From: Tetraselmis striata
Taxonomy: Eukaryota; Chlorophyta; Chlorodendrophyceae; Chlorodendrales; Chlorodendraceae
DNA: 64,000 nucleotides
NCBI GenBank assembly: GCA_006384855.1
Contig: VCJN01001728.1
Span: 1-64,000 of the forward strand
Direction: 5' to 3'
The notes below the pieces were generated by a model. It was not told where the DNA came from, did not search any database, and saw nothing but the letters and a program-made list of their open reading frames with translations. Within the stretch, counting starts at the first letter, position 1, and every line of letters starts with the position of its first letter. Positions 1,550 to 8,828 of the stretch are shown here, piece by piece. Both the position numbers and the translations under genes were made by a program.

Positions 1550-1551
1550 AT

Positions 1552-1670
1552 AGAGGAGTTCCACAATAAGGTGCCCGTACAGAATTACGGTGTTAAGCAT
1601 TCGTACCCGTATTTTCGCTACGGAGAACCGCTCCGCCGCAGCCCAGGGCCAGCGCACCGCGCCCGCGCAG
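1552..1670 (+). repeat. Left terminal inverted repeat, 119 bp
   Basis: Begins AGAGGAGTTCCACAATAAGG and is the reverse complement of 6582-6700 at 117 of 119 positions by eye. Confidence 0.92.
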
Positions 1671-1749
1671 TTGCATTGCTGACCGCCGTCGGCACATCGT
1701 CATTCCAACCCTAACCGCACCTGACCGCTCCGTGTTGGCCACCCACGAG

Positions 1750-4180
1750 ATGCGCATCCCAGGTCTCCTTACCCTCGTTGACCCCATATGCGAGAAGACC
1801 AACTTGTATGCACTGGCCCGCGGGAGGCGTTAATTTAGGCATTGACGGTCACGTTTGGATGCACCAGTTGGGCTACCACCACGCGCAATCCATTGTCTTG
1901 GACAAGGACTACGAGCCGCTCGCCAAGCACTTCCTGCAGCATACACAGTCTGTTCTCGGGCGAGGGGTAGACCTTTTGTTTGTCTTCGATGGAGCACCCA
2001 CGCCCGCGAAGCGGTCTACAGACTCCGCGCGTCAGGTTAGGCGTGCGAAAGCGTATGCCGCAGTTCAGTACGATGGCGCTGAAGCCGACCCTAAGATGCT
2101 GCGCGCCGCTGTTTCCTTGGGATGGCCGGCTGTCGTGGCAGTGTTATCACAGCTCCGCCGCGCAGGGATCCCCTACATCCCTACGTCGCCCTTTGAGGCA
2201 GACGCGCAGCTGTCTTTGCTTGCGCGCGACGGGAAGATATGGGCTGCAGTCACAATCGACAGCGACTTCATCATCCACGGCTTGCCCAGGGTTTTTTTTA
2301 AGGTCAACTGGAGGTCAGGCCGTTGTCTTCTGTACTCCAAGGCGGTGCTGCAGGATCCTGACCGGTGGCCAGAACTGCCATCCAAGTTTAAGCCCCCGCA
2401 GCAGCTTTTACCCATCGTGAAGGATGCTGGGCTGCCTGCTATGTTGTGCTTCGGGCTGCTGGACGGCTGTGATTATGGTACCAAGATAAGGGGTGTCGGT
2501 GTGGTGAAAGCCGCGGAAATCCTGGAGGATGTGGTTAAGCAGCATGGTGCTGTTGCGCTCCAAGATGTCAGAGGAGCAGTGACTCTGATGGCGCAGGAAG
2601 TTCTAAAGCACCTCAACAGGCGGGGAGGTAACCCCCCCCCCCCCCCCCCCCTTCCCAAAATGGTAACTCCAGTGCCGACTTCACATTGTGGAGTGCTATT
2701 TTTTTCTATTCTTTTTTCTTGCCAAGTGCACTTTTGACAATTCTGCATCACTATTCTGCATGCTGTGTGCTGTGCAGATTTTGATGCCGATGCATGGATA
2801 CCTACTGCACTTAACGTCATTGATGTATTTCAGCACGCGCTGGCGTATAATCCCGAAACGCGCAAAGTGGAGACTGTCGACCATATGCCAATCAACGAGG
2901 CCATCACGCGCTGGCCCTTCCTCGGCTTCAACATCAATGATTGTGATGCGGAGGGCAGGGCATTGGGCCCCATCACCCCTGCAGGGGCACCTCAGGAGCT
3001 ACCTCATGTGAGCAGTATTCGCACTCCAGCCATTGCATGGCAGCTGACAGAAGATATGGTCTTGGGCCCAGAGCTGCGGGAGCCTTTTCCATTACCAAAT
3101 GAACATGGTGAGTGGCCGGCTGACTTCCGCCCGACCGTTGCACAACTGCGGCACTGGTGCCGTACCAGGCATGGAATGCCTTTATTCTCTGGGGCATCTC
3201 GCTCCGACCTAGTGAGGCGGGTGAAGGAGCGTCAATTGGTGGAGAAAGAAATGCAGGATAAGGAAGAGCGGGTGCTATTTCGTGACCCGCATGGCCGCAG
3301 TCTCCAGGATCATATTCTGTCCAGTCACCCTGATCAGGCATGGCATTTCGCTGAGGCTACTGATGGCGAACGAGAGGAGCTGCTGCCCACAGAGGGCTGG
3401 GTGACTGGCATTCAACAGATTGGGCGCGATGCGCCCACTGTGGATCAGACGCTTTTGCTGTCGCACTGGGAGCACTGATTACACCTGCTAAATGGTGGTA
3501 CGCGTACAATCCTGGACGACGCCTTCTCCCGCGTTGCGGAGATGCAGCACCTGCCTCACTTTGCGTTTCACCCCAATGAGAACGCAACCATGCCTCGCAC
3601 TCGGCATGGAGGGAGTCAGAGGTCGGTCTTCTTCAAGTTTTCAGCCCCAGCCAGCCAGCGTATGGAGACAACCTACCACGTGTGGGTGGAGTGCGGCGTG
3701 TCAGCACTTCCAGGCTTGCGCCCTTTCATTTCCCGCATCCTGCGTTGTGGCTGCACATGCCCTCTGAGATCAAGTGCAGATTGTGTGCATTTGCTCATGC
3801 TTATGGTGGTCATTCTGAACCTGCCGCGCCCATGGGGTGAGCCACCCTGCACCTCTTTGCGATGCGCATGGCTGAATCCTGGTAACGGCGACACCTACGA
3901 CATCACCACCCCCTTGCCTTTCATTCCATTCATGCGCACCAGCTTCACTCCTCAGCGCCTCAGGGACGCAAGTGGGATGGCGAGGCGGGTGCTGCCCGTT
4001 TCAGACAATGCAGGGTGGCGCTACAAGTTCAACCCTGTGCCACTCGCGGACCGCGATGCCGTTCAACATGGCCGCAGCACTGCAGCACGTGTGGCTGCCA
4101 GGGAGGCGCTATGGGAGGAGATGCAGCGTGCCCTAAACGGAGACCGATGTGCAGCCGATGTTGCGTGGCGTGGGCTGTGA
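1750..4180 (+). pseudogene. Transposon protein: FEN1/XPG-like nuclease, SAP and SWIM zinc finger (damaged)
   Basis: The likely start is ATG 1750 (MRIPGLLTLVDP, a FEN1-like opening). That frame hits TAA at 1831 and the rest continues one frame over, so there is a 1-nt frameshift near 1830. FEN1/XPG motifs then follow in order: LGIDGHVWMHQ, LLFVFDGAPTPAKR, PFEADAQLSLLARDG, AVTIDSDFIIHG, and GCDYGTKIRGVGVVKAAEIL (the helix-hairpin part). All the expected acidic metal-binding residues are present. A 150-bp GT-AG intron (2628-2777) with a poly-C run restores the frame (RRG-D-FDADAW). Next comes a SAP-like segment (TVAQLRHWCRTRHGMPLFSG, then SDLVRRVKE). TGA at 3476-3478 interrupts the frame, which continues unchanged to 4180. 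That last part holds a SWIM-like CxCx7CxH finger (about 3748-3795) followed by PCTSLRCAW, as in ISL2EU partner proteins. Probable role: DNA cleavage or repair at transposition. No YqaJ nuclease motif is seen. Confidence 0.8.
2628..2777 (+). other. Intron with poly-C run
   Basis: Donor G|GTAACC at 2628 and acceptor TGTGCAG ending at 2777. Splicing joins the two open frames in phase. A run of about 18 C starts five bases into the intron. Confidence 0.8.
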
Positions 4181-4371
4181 GCTTGATGTTGTGGCTGCAA
4201 ACACGTACTTGTGTTGTGTGCATGCAATGCAGGGCAGAGCAACATATGGTAGGCCACATCATAGGCCGGGTGGGGCAGGGGCCCTCACCCATACCCTTCC
4301 ACAGGGTGGGGGATATGTAATCATCATCCACATTATTTTACGTGTGAGACGGTTCAGAAATAGATATTTCA

Positions 4372-5813
4372 TTACATTAGAAGTCTGCCTGAGCTGCAAA
4401 GAGGGCGCTGCAGGTTGCACAGATGTCCTACGACATTAAAGGCCTTCTCTATCATATCTACAGAGTATAGAGACAGTTTCTTACCAGAGAAGGCCCTCCA
4501 GTTATGCACGCGGCTGAAATGCCGCTCTACATGGATGCGCAGGTTAGACTTCTCTCCGTTGCCCTGCCTCTCATCCGCTGTGTAGTGACGCTGCCCCTGC
4601 CAACGCCGCGCTGGTGCAACAATGTGTGCACCGCGTGCAACAACCAACGCCTCGCACTGGTCAAACCCCTTGTCTGCTGGGATGCAGTCACCCCTCTGCA
4701 GGATCTGCAGCCAGTGGGAAACGCGTAATATGTCTGTGTCTGAGATGCGGCCAGGATATGCTTGAGAGGTACCGCAATAGGCACCCACAGGGAGGACTGC
4801 AGCCAACAGCTTGGCTGTGTGGGCTGTTTTGTAATCGGAGTAACATGTCCGAGCTGCTTTCCTGCTGCATGGCTGCTGCAACCGGAGCTCTGTGCAGTCC
4901 AGCACAAACCGGACCAACGCGCCGTACGCCTCCCTCCACTCAGGCTGCACCCGGTCCAACATATCCGCCGTGCTGGGGACGGGGAACTCCGCTTTGAAAA
5001 ACTGATCAAGGTAAGAAATCCATGTCGGGAAAATGCGGGTGAGGCACGACACCTTGATTCCTGACCACGCACTGATGACGCGGGTCCCCAGCCCAGTGCG
5101 TAGCTTCACCAGAGTGACCAGCAAAGCATTCTGCGTAGTGAAGGTCCGCTGTTCCGGTTTCCCGACTGACTCGCGTTGTGCGGTGCCATTAGCCTCCGCC
5201 TCCATGCGCTGCATGCTCTGCTTGCCGTTCCAGTAGCGCAGTCGGTCCGCCACTCCCTCGCAGTTCACCCATTCAAAGAATTTCTGCAGAGACTGGGCAG
5301 TTGGAAACCCAACAATGTGATTGATGCAAGCATTCCAGGCAGAACCTTCCTTCATCACATTCTCCCATGTGAGCCGGTCCACCAGTCCTGCAGAGACTGG
5401 GCAGTTGGAAACCCAACAATGTGATTGATGCAAGCATTCCAGGCAGAACCTTCCTTCATCACATTCTCCCATGTGAGCCGGTCCACCAGTCCATCCAGCA
5501 TGCCGTCAATCTCCGCATTTTTCCTCTCCAGCTCCTTAGCCAGGTTAGCTATCACATTGCCACATGTGTGCTGAGCAGCGCCAAGCTGCGCCTGCACGTG
5601 CTCAAGCTGCTCCATCAGCACCTCCTTCTCCCTCGCCGCCTGCCCAAGCTTCTCCCGCAGCCTCTCCGCCTCTATTTTTGCTGTTGAGTAAAGATTCTTG
5701 TTGTCCGCCAATTGTTCCTCCAACAGCTTAATTCTCGACCGCATGTGGGAAACCACCAGGGAGTCCATCTCTGATGCACCTGACCGAGGGCGAGGAGCAG
5801 GCGGTTGCTGCAT
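4372..5813 (-). pseudogene. DDE transposase (DDE_Tnp_4-like) with N-terminal coiled coil, broken by a duplication
   Basis: Two overlapping minus frames make up one protein. 5813-5355 gives a leucine-heptad coiled coil (RIKLLEEQLADN to LAKELERKNAEI) and the start of a WENVMKEGSAWN segment. 5472-4372 continues it and carries the catalytic core. Numbering in the second frame, D192 lies in VLDCTELRLQQP, D267 in CIPADKGFDQCE and E316 in LRIHVERHFSR. These are the three metal-binding acids of the RNase H-like DDE fold, with the SDYKTAHTAKLL and YPGRISDTDI segments typical of PF13359. The enzyme would cut and join transposon ends. A 104-bp tandem duplication (5284-5491) shifts the frame, so this copy cannot make the full enzyme. 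The preceding THAP-like frame (5878-6495) is probably its DNA-binding N-terminus or a partner. Confidence 0.85.
5284..5491. repeat. 104-bp tandem duplication inside the transposase gene
   Basis: The segment starting CTGCAGAGACTGGGCAG at 5284 recurs at 5388 almost unchanged. The 104-bp length is not a multiple of three and separates the two transposase frames. Confidence 0.9.
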
Positions 5814-5877
5814 GGGCTCATTTAAACCGCCGCGTGGCAGCGGCGAGCCCCAACGAGCCGGGGCACTAGGCGGCAGC

Positions 5878-6495
5878 CTAGGTGAGGGGGGGGATGTTCT
5901 CCTGCTCCCTAATGCTCGGAGACCTTGGCCTCACTCTAGAGAGGACAGAGGACGTAGCTGCTCGCTGTTGGCTGTTTGTGCTTATGCTCCTGAGCGGTGA
6001 CCGAAACGCTGCCCGCGGACCTGCCGGCGTCGACGGCTGCACACCAGTGGAGCCTACTGCGGCAGCCATGCCAGCTCCACGGGAGAGAGGGCGCTGACGC
6101 ACGGGGGTAGCAGCGCTGACGGGCGGCGGCCGCGGCGCTGCCCGTCGCGCGCAGTTTTGGTCAACTGCATCCTTGAACGGCAGAGGGGTTGCACCGGGCT
6201 TCAACGCCTTACCCACCGCGCCACCTTTTCTCTTGATGTCCCTTTTGTTGCTGTCCGCGAAGTGGGAGGTGTGTACCTTGTAGCTCCTAGGGTTCTTGAG
6301 CACCTTGTCGCGGTAAGTTGGGTCATTGAAGACGAGGATGTCGACGACCTTCCGGTAGTGGTCTGGGTCACGCGCGAGCGTGTCCATGCCATGCGCATTC
6401 TTGGTGACCGGTTTGCGACAGTTCGGGTGGTTGCAGACGCAGTATTCCCCGCGTGCATCTTTCGGGGTGGGTAGCGGAGTGTTTTGCGTCGACAT
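5878..6495 (-). CDS. THAP-like zinc-finger protein or transposase N-terminus
   Basis: Start chosen at ATG 6495 (MSTQNTPLPTP); the longer frame to 6681 only reads into the terminal repeat. Residues about 13-75 contain YCVCNHPNCRKPV and, about 50 residues later, KVHTSHF. That spacing resembles a THAP C2CH finger (C-x-C ... C-x2-HF), with His where the third Cys is usual. THAP fingers are the common end-binding domain of P-element and ISL2EU/Harbinger-type transposases. The remaining ~125 residues are Pro/Ser/Arg-rich linker and end at TAG just after an 8-C run. That run separates it from the coiled-coil frame at 5813, so a slip or splice could join the two into one transposase. Family call is moderate; the link to the transposase comes from position. 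Confidence 0.6.
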   Translation of the reverse strand: MSTQNTPLPTPKDARGEYCVCNHPNCRKPVTKNAHGMDTLARDPDHYRKVVDILVFNDPTYRDKVLKNPRSYKVHTSHFADSNKRDIKRKGGAVGKALKPGATPLPFKDAVDQNCARRAAPRPPPVSAATPVRQRPLSRGAGMAAAVGSTGVQPSTPAGPRAAFRSPLRSISTNSQQRAATSSVLSRVRPRSPSIREQENIPPLT

Positions 6496-6581
6496 GATGT
6501 GGGTATGAGAGGTAGGAGATGACGATGTGGTGACTGGCGACAAGATGTATGAGCAATGTGGGAGCGACCGAGTCAACAATT

Positions 6582-6700
6582 CTGCGCGGGCGCGGTGCGC
6601 TGGCCTTGGGCTGCGGCGGAGCGGTTCTCCGTAGCGAAAATACGGGTACGAATGCTTAACACCGTAATTCTGTACGGGCACCTTACTGTGGAACTCCTCT
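6582..6700 (-). repeat. Right terminal inverted repeat, 119 bp
   Basis: Reverse complement of 1552-1670 with two mismatches. The DNA-transposon similarity stops at AT 6701-6702. Confidence 0.92.
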
Positions 6701-6702
6701 AT

Positions 6703-7797
6703 ACTGGCATGGCATCAGCGTCGGCCACGCGCAGCAACACCCCCTTGGCTTTAAAACGCTATAACTTTTCAGGGTTTGCTCAAAAAAACTTTTTAAAAAT
6801 ACCACGCGATTCCTCGTTCAAATCTGCGTCGAAAACAATCTTCCAAAATCAAAAATCGATTTTTGGGGTCCCCGGGAAAAAATCCCCAAAGATGATCATC
6901 CAAGTTGCCCCTCACTCCCTCATGTGCCCACCCATATCGGGCTCGTGGCTTTGCGCCAAGTGCGTGTCTAAGCCCCATACTCAGTTGCGCGAGAGAGTTA
7001 TGTATGTGGATGACCACGGACCACCAACACTTGGCATGTGCCACCTCCTAGCGATACACACATCTTCCAGCCAAAACGCCATTTTCCACAGCATTTTTCA
7101 AGGAATTTCATATTAATCAAAATCCACGCCCCTACCGCGCCACCCCGCCCACGAAACGGTGCAACTGGCATTCCACCACGCGCCCCCATAGTAGAGCATT
7201 GCCCTACACCAAGGAGGCCATCGAGCGCCTCTCCTACGTGCGTTCGCCACAGAAACATCAGCATTTTCACCCCAAAACTGCTCCCCACAGTGGCCAACTT
7301 GTCATTGGGGTGTCACGTCGTGCCTATAGCGACATGCTTTCAGTGGCCTACACGCACGGTGTGTGCAACTTATGCCAAGGGCCGTATTCACCGAGTTCGG
7401 TGCGACGAGTGCCGCAATTTCCATAGGGTTGGACGGTTGGCGCAACCCACAACTTTCTGGCGCCAACGCATCATGCATTGATTTCGCGTTTTTGAAAGGG
7501 CGCCCACAAATGGTCGTGTTGTCGCGCGGGTGGGTATAAAGCGCACAATAGGAGTTCGCCCGAACCATTCCCACTGTAGTTAGCATGTATGGACATGCAG
7601 CCGGCGTTATCCTCGCCCATGCATGAGCTTTGCGATCGAAAATGCAAAACCCGGACTTATGTGGAGGGGTGTAGAACGCCGATATCCAGGCTGCTGGAGC
7701 ACGTGAATAGTCCTACCGGTACTATTGAAGTACATATCGAAAAAAGCTTCGTGTTTACGAAGACCCATGTACGAAAATGCCCTGTGTAAATGTTCAG
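6703..7797. other. No gene recognised
   Basis: Lower-GC sequence with short A/T runs at 6760-6880 and no convincing frame. GGGTATAAAG near 7531 could be a TATA box, but no gene follows it. Confidence 0.5.
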
Positions 7798-7936
7798 ATC
7801 CATGTGGACATGCGGTCCATGCGGACATGGAGCCTCCATTGACCCATGTCCACATGGCCCTTACTATTTACACATGGAGCAATTCAGGTCATATCCGTGT
7901 GGACATGGGCCGTCTGTCGCCCATGTCCACATGCTT
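7798..7936. repeat. Cluster of CATGTGGACATG-type sites in both orientations
   Basis: At least five near-copies of CATGTGGACATGG or its reverse complement lie within 140 bp (around 7802, 7822, 7847, 7897 and 7920), some arranged head to head. They abut the LINE tail end at 7938. Confidence 0.6.
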
Positions 7937-7937
7937 G

Positions 7938-8690
7938 TTTTTTTTCGCCCCCGGGACAGGACTGGCACCAGTGAAACCCTTGCAGCGTCTCTACGACGGC
8001 CGTTTAGGCAGCAATCCAGTTACGGAAAGCCCTGGGTAGGCGACGCTCCGTTATAGTCATCAAGCAAATTGCCGAAGCATTCTGCAAGACTTATTGAAGG
8101 CCAGTGACGGAATTTCCAACACTGTTGGATCACCGTCTAAAACACTGCCATCAAAATACCCGGCACTGACCACGAAAGGTCCGCCCTACCCGTTTGGGCG
8201 TCGGCCCATTCGAGTAATGCGAGTTGGGGCAAGCCCCAACCCGCGGAGCAAAGCATTTCGGGAGTGCGATACATGTGCAACAAAAAAGGCAATGTGAGGG
8301 AGGGCCCGACGCCATAGCTGGAAAAATTTCCCATTCCCAGTAAAATCCAGGGCGCCGTGAAGGGAGGGGGGGACCCCGCCCAAAATAAAGGCAGTTAAGT
8401 CCTCAGGTGTTGACGCAATTACCTGACTACTAATAAAATCCCTGAACTCCGGAACTAACAACCTAAAATTATGACGATGATACCCCCACCGCGGGCACTC
8501 CACCAACATATGTTCGATAGTCTCAGATTCACCTCCGCCACATGCAGGGCAGTGTTCAAGGAACCGCTCAGGCATGGCATGAATCCGGGCCAATCGGCGG
8601 GCAGTGGGAAATACTCGGGTGCGTAATTGTATCATAATGTGCAACCCGACAACAACCCATGCGGGGACACCCACACCGTACACATGCTAT
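7938..8690 (-). mobile_element. 5'-truncated LINE: C-terminus and 3' tail
   Basis: Minus-strand frame 8683-8186 encodes the end of a LINE ORF2: an ARRLARIHAMPERFLEHCPAC segment followed by ETIEHMLVECPRW, the CPxC...EHxLxxCP zinc-binding motif found after reverse transcriptase in L1/Tad/RTE-like elements. A 250-bp 3' UTR follows and ends in CCCGGGGGCG plus an A-run at 7930-7937. The reverse transcriptase itself is missing (5' truncation near 8690), as expected of a dead insertion. The same 3' tail occurs at 13078, 13405, 49215 and 50577. Confidence 0.8.
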
Positions 8691-8828
8691 GGGTCCTCTT
8701 CTTGAAGGTGCGCAAAAAAATGTAGGCTCCTTTCAGTCTTTCAATTGAAGTTAAGATTGGCGTAGAGAAGTAGCGAGAAATGCGTTTGCTGCTTTGGGAG
8801 TTATAGCGCGGTTACTCCCAAAGCTATG

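Follow-up and report, generated by a model that had tools for sequence, protein, structure and literature searches.

A two-gene transposon in Tetraselmis striata

We analysed a 64,000-nucleotide stretch of the genome of the green alga Tetraselmis striata (contig VCJN01001728.1, positions 1 to 64,000; hereafter the window), which carries at 1552-6700 a DNA transposon pairing a transposase gene with a gene for a nuclease resembling exonuclease 1 (EXO1). The element lies between terminal inverted repeats (TIRs) of 119 bp, the left one at 1552..1670 on the plus strand and the right one at 6582..6700 on the minus strand, both located by an inverted-repeat scan and by comparison with other copies. 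Together with the dinucleotide AT on each outer side they form an inverted repeat of 121 nt (1550-1670/6582-6702) that is 98% complementary, which confirms the inverted ends described in an original prediction made from the sequence alone. The two AT copies (1550..1551 and 6701..6702) represent a target-site duplication (TSD), four empty sites holding a single AT. The interior is occupied by two convergent genes, that of the nuclease on the plus strand and that of the transposase on the minus strand.

The nuclease gene consists of two exons (1750..2627 and 2778..4180) separated by a GT-AG intron (2628..2777). It is transcribed: P0001 is an identical, spliced transcript of the gene, from which the corresponding intron has been removed. 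The first exon codes for the nuclease domain, with Pfam matches to XPG_I (E 3.6e-9) and XPG_N (E 1.1e-6), and its catalytic-motif codons run from 1838 to 2476 (GIDG at 1838, VFDG at 1982, FEADA at 2192, TIDSD at 2252 and GCDY at 2465). The second exon contains, in this order and on the same plus strand, a weak SAP-like stretch (3131..3229), a SWIM-type CxCx7CxH finger (3752..3790) and the predicted CTSxxCxW box, here CTSLRCAW (3848..3871). The window copy is defective, as translation from the ATG at 1750 meets a stop at 1831-1833. A premature TGA follows at 3476-3478, a position at which L013, an open copy with a protein of 757 aa, reads through. Other copies are open where the window copy is broken.

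The transposase gene (4372..6495, minus strand) is a single open frame of 684 aa in copy L016 and is also broken in the window, by an exact tandem duplication of 104 bp (5284..5491) that is single in the other copies aligned. It encodes, as predicted, a DDE_Tnp_4-like transposase, whose catalytic domain (4414..4902, minus strand; PF13359, E 3.4e-26) contains LDCTE at 4888, GRISD at 4738 and RIHVER at 4522, and which also has an HTH_Tnp_4 domain (5002..5136, minus strand; PF13613, E 1.2e-6). The motifs LDCTE, SDYK, ADKGF and RIHVER presumably resemble those of animal ISL2EU transposases. A THAP-like zinc finger had been proposed at the N-terminus (6259..6444, minus strand): its pattern (CxCx4C ... 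VHxxHF) is there, but the Pfam THAP family (PF05485) was matched in one of seven members (E 0.043), and a PDB profile search with the transposase gave no THAP, the transposase alignments retrieving mostly coiled coils. Structure prediction for the transposase yielded a model of low quality (mean pLDDT 54.7), from which no informative fold match was obtained. We consider it very likely that the anatomy of the element is as described here.

An EXO1-like nuclease with a finger region

The second gene had been predicted to encode a FEN1/XPG nuclease. The XPG_N and XPG_I matches agree with this, but the nearest protein is EXO1 (PDB profile E 3e-37, versus 2e-20 for FEN1), which is also nearest by structure, with 22-23% identity in structural alignments. 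Judged by sequence, the protein is thus a predicted member of the XPG superfamily, EXO1-like rather than FEN1/XPG proper. It shares with EXO1 the nuclease fold and all seven catalytic acids (D31, D79, E147, D149, D168, D170 and D239 in the L013 protein), whose counterparts in EXO1 we take to be D30, D78, E150, D152, D171, D173 and D225, with the catalytic roles that we assume for them there. To our knowledge, EXO1 has no SWIM/CTS part.

The nuclease alignment (A1) comprised eight of the 11 matched proteins (those other than P0009-P0011) plus the L013 protein. Relatives at 45-55% identity occur in Prasinocladus and in metagenomes, and a full-length relative at 27% identity keeps a similar finger and box. 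P0009, a protein of 991 aa, shares the nuclease domain, at 31% across one third of the query length, and its finger region is altered. No relatives were confirmed in IMG/VR through either the nuclease or the transposase alignments.

Concerning the region beyond the nuclease domain, the predicted finger is present as a pattern, but the SWIM match of the window protein lies below the Pfam cut-off (12.5 bits versus 19.6, E 0.11), and PF04434 was likewise sub-threshold in four of the 11 alignment members (best E 0.13). The looser pattern CxCx(6-12)CxH was found in 19 of 20 entries (absent from P0009) and CxCx7CxH in 17 of 20 (absent from L018, P0007 and P0009), in a region modelled as three strands and a helix within a low-confidence part of the structure model. 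For the predicted SAP domain, a SAP-like stretch is recognizable but has no Pfam SAP match; Ish1 was matched below threshold in two of the 11 members, in P0007 at the corresponding stretch.

The original prediction had this nuclease in the place of a YqaJ domain, and YqaJ (PF09588) is indeed absent among the families matched by any of the 11 alignment members at E<=10. A canonical ISL2EU element, sought in the same genome through YqaJ, was rejected as a candidate: around the two YqaJ matches of the genome (L028 and L029), no similarity to either element protein was found within ~3.4 kb. The YqaJ open reading frames (ORFs) of these two loci adjoin ORFs that are alike between them, and may, as a guess, belong to an integrated viral region.

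Families, target site and linkage of the two genes

Searched with the TIR, the assembly to which the window belongs (224 Mb in 2903 contigs) gave 35 matches, around which 19 stretches were taken. Family 1 comprises 13 loci with the same ends, the window included. Both genes are present, in some cases with internal deletions, in ten of them (the window, L009-L013 and L016-L019), whereas three are truncated: L014 retains one end and a 5' fragment of the nuclease gene, the 787-bp L015 retains both ends and 5' fragments of the two genes, and L023, at a contig start, retains only the transposase side. Family 2 has ends 82-88% alike to those of family 1 over the first ~60 bp; L020 and L021 carry both genes, L022 the transposase gene with the beginning of the nuclease gene, L026 and L027 gene pieces, and L024 and L025 neither gene within the stretches taken. 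Family 3 (C2683, C1259 and C2011) consists of copies of 5.94 kb that are 98.7-99.0% identical and have ends of 35-36 bp, with the same layout and protein identities of 36-46% for the nuclease (by segment) and 41-42% for the transposase. Two jgi/Tetstr1 proteins are nearly identical to copies of this genome, P0019 matching the family-3 transposase at 420 of 429 residues and P0027 reaching 98% over its match.

More diverged relatives of the nuclease gene, at ~24-52% identity by segment, were observed in the same genome (L035, L046, L051, L053, L056, L057 and L058), and their sequences suggest further families. In L017, the family-1 copy is interrupted at ~4072-8786 by an insert of 4.7 kb, which has inverted ends of 14 bp (CGCACAGCGTACGG) and contains several ORFs of no recognised kind. 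A second SWIM/CTS-like match in this locus was considered as a nested relative and rejected, as it sits in the insert, whose ORFs look unrelated.

Termini begin with AGAG or AGAT in all three families, and among 39 distinct termini the flanking AT is highly regular, with A at -2 in 35 and T at -1 in 36. Five termini depart from it: the end itself is altered in L010, L016, L020 and L026, and in L018 an intact end is flanked by other bases. The preferred target is T|AT|A, with T at -3 in 26 of the 39 termini and A in seven. We compared the joined flanks of nine insertions, with a single AT at the join, to the genome, scoring the best 40 of 2442 candidates. Uninterrupted empty sites were found for four insertions representing all three families (the window, L013, L021 and C2011), and the sites read base by base, one per insertion, match at 57, 57, 58 and 57 of 58 positions, respectively; the fit is worse with two AT (37-39/60) or none (34-37/56). 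These clean sites with a single AT show that the element was mobile in the past and that it duplicates 2 bp, AT, in all three families. For L011, L012, L019, L022 and C1259, no empty site was found among the best 40 of 2442 candidates. The joined flanks of L009 gave a diverged empty site (82% along 135 bp spanning the join), and those of C2683 gave none.

The window insertion itself lies within a repeat of high copy number: among the 40 scored rows, 29 are empty versions of this site, at 97-98%. Such copies are ~1520 bp apart in contigs C1231, C498, C2405 and C1399, in a tandem-array-like arrangement.

The association of the two genes is stable. By tblastn, 25 of 29 genomic XPG_I matches best resemble the element nuclease, the remaining four (L030, L031, L032 and L055) being nearer to cellular-type proteins. 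At 16 of these 25, a DDE_Tnp_4 match lies within ~5 kb on the opposite strand (tables compared by eye, with the best 150 of 187 DDE_Tnp_4 candidates), and all ten genomic HTH_Tnp_4 matches fall in elements with the element nuclease (nine by contig and position, C663 by tblastn). The metagenome proteins P0003/P0015 and P0006/P0014 probably share contigs, which are equal-sized within each pair (5736 and 8284).

Between families 1 and 2, dN/dS over the codons alignable at the DNA level is ~0.04 for the nuclease exon, 0.10-0.11 for the second exon and 0.13-0.16 for the transposase, values that are rough because dS is 1.3-2.5, near saturation. These ratios indicate that the nuclease is under purifying selection between the families. 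Transposons do capture host genes, and the domain is close to cellular EXO1, which would fit a captured gene without a role in transposition. However, the gene recurs in three families, in the Prasinocladus and metagenome relatives and in the 27% relative with its finger and box; the between-family dN/dS is low, and no examined family-1 locus with a whole transposase gene is without the nuclease gene. We consider capture without function very unlikely. That the XPG gene might be a passenger had been named as a threat to the original prediction, and it is present in ten of ten untruncated family-1 loci. As it is kept in all of these, recurs down to 27% identity and appears to be under purifying selection, we regard it as a fixed part of the element.

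Elsewhere in the window, a 201-bp unit forms ~2.5 tandem repeats at 1-520 (81-93% identical), an imperfect palindrome with 33-nt arms (82% complementary) lies at 7780-7877, and an ORF on the minus strand at 8186-8680 has a sub-threshold zf-RVT match (E 0.0043) and is perhaps the end of a retroelement.

Classification and possible role of the nuclease

According to a 2015 survey, ISL2EU elements have an AT TSD in the target A|AT|T, usually GG ends, a transposase with DDE, HTH and THAP domains, a YqaJ partner, an average length of ~4840 bp and animal hosts only, in all 14 species (PMC4482050); a table of 2021 gives an ISL2EU annotation in an oomycete, so that non-animal annotations exist (PMC8204020). 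On this description, the Tetraselmis element is like ISL2EU in its 2-bp AT TSD, its DDE and HTH transposase, its two genes, the second with an exonuclease-type domain, and its similar length (5.15 and 5.9 kb against ~4.84 kb). It differs in having an EXO1-like nuclease in place of YqaJ, AG in place of GG ends, T|AT|A in place of A|AT|T, and green algae in place of animals as hosts. Because all four of these traits fail, we do not file it as ISL2EU: it is an ISL2EU-like variant within PHIS. The predicted ISL2EU-like pairing with an XPG nuclease therefore holds for the AT duplication, the PHIS-type transposase, the recurrence in three families and the lack of YqaJ, but does not extend to the other ISL2EU traits. 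The proposed swap, which would presuppose YqaJ as the ancestral partner and a SWIM part of common descent with that of the ISL2EU YqaJ protein, is conjectural. Spy elements also have a PHIS transposase but are reported to have no TSD and mostly a single ORF (PMC4482050; PMC9179366). PIF/Harbinger elements share the DDE_Tnp_4 catalytic domain but have a 3-bp TWA duplication and a Myb/SANT partner, in place of AT and an XPG_N/XPG_I partner; no Myb/SANT is found in the Pfam tables of the element proteins.

In a tree, a very long branch with 100/100 support divides 16 transposases of the clade from 13 further genomic DDE_Tnp_4 transposases, which we assigned to the Harbinger type solely on motifs. 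This tree was built without L080, L082, L083 and L084 (four of 17 in-genome loci) and P0019, P0025 and P0027-P0030 (six of 19 proteins), and P0022 and L077 form long branches in it. No relatives of the transposase were confirmed in prokaryotic genomes.

AcademX transposons have an accessory nuclease (PMC10045372), of the XPG type. The pairing of a transposase with a nuclease is thus common to both, but the AcademX TSD is 3-4 bp, not AT (PMC10045372), and the transposase appears to be another one, whereas that of our element matches DDE_Tnp_4 and HTH_Tnp_4 and, in 14 of 17 members, the IS5 model NF033581 weakly (below cut-off, best 3.5e-7). Membership in AcademX, named as a threat to the original prediction, is extremely unlikely. 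The open-licence literature searched yielded no paper joining XPG or EXO1 nucleases to PHIS elements.

The best explanation, which we favour with modest confidence, is a cut-and-paste PHIS transposon, closest by its described traits to ISL2EU, whose fixed second gene encodes an EXO1-like 5' nuclease with a SWIM-type finger that would resect breaks. The transposase would bind the TIRs, excise the element and insert it at TATA, the strand joints being staggered by 2 nt. Recruitment of the nuclease to element DNA or to the transposase may fall to the SWIM/SAP-like part, and the nuclease would then resect 5' ends at the break, most likely the one in the donor. Repair would thereby tend to use as template a sister or homologue in which the element is still present, restoring the donor copy and raising copy number. 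The assignment of the nuclease to the donor break is tentative, and we place it somewhat short of an even chance.

Several points weigh against this explanation. The resection role is read from sequence, and other 5'-nuclease roles would fit too. Neither the SAP nor the THAP assignment is established, the SWIM match is sub-threshold in Pfam, and neither L018, a copy of family 1, nor the distant relative P0009 shows the CxCx7CxH or the box pattern. Near saturation of dS (1.3-2.5) makes the omega between families 1 and 2 rough, and within families most values are ~0.5-1.1 (0.26-2.6 overall), as in dead copies. Finally, the 19 matches that a profile search for animal ISL2EU transposases listed at E<=1 all seem to belong to the algal clade; as scoring was confined to the 7991 candidates with the most shared words, this is no evidence of absence.

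One of these other roles would be at the new insertion site, where the nuclease could trim 5' flaps or gaps after strand transfer. FEN1/EXO1-type enzymes can trim in this way, with the same domain and catalytic residues, and a TSD length that differs with the accessory enzyme is discussed for Academ lineages (PMC10045372). However, the duplication here is an ordinary 2 bp, and the related Spy elements are reported mostly to have one ORF (PMC9179366); we consider this role unlikely, if deserving of some weight. The nuclease might alternatively protect the element, degrading competing mobile DNA or interfering with host silencing or repair, since a finger that binds DNA or protein could let the attached nuclease work in trans. 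Its steady linkage and conservation point instead to a core step, and protection seems improbable.

YqaJ is a lambda-type 5'-3' exonuclease, of a fold unrelated to EXO1. As the algal nuclease is EXO1-like rather than FEN1/XPG, the parallel with YqaJ is closer than was thought in the original prediction. The need shared with the YqaJ-carrying animal ISL2EU would then be 5'-3' resection and not a particular protein. More speculatively, and in our judgement doubtful, the second gene of ISL2EU-type elements may be a 5'-3' exonuclease slot filled independently, by YqaJ in animals and by an EXO1-type enzyme in green algae, each of them linked to a SWIM/CTSxxCxW part for targeting. Were this so, elements of this kind would transpose with break resection as an integral step.

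The element extends ISL2EU-like transposons beyond animals, to which the 2015 survey confines them (PMC4482050). Its combination of the same duplication and transposase type with another nuclease fold of the same polarity, as judged from homology and general knowledge, narrows the question to the role of a 5'-3' exonuclease in transposition, and recent algal copies whose frames are open offer material for testing what this nuclease does.

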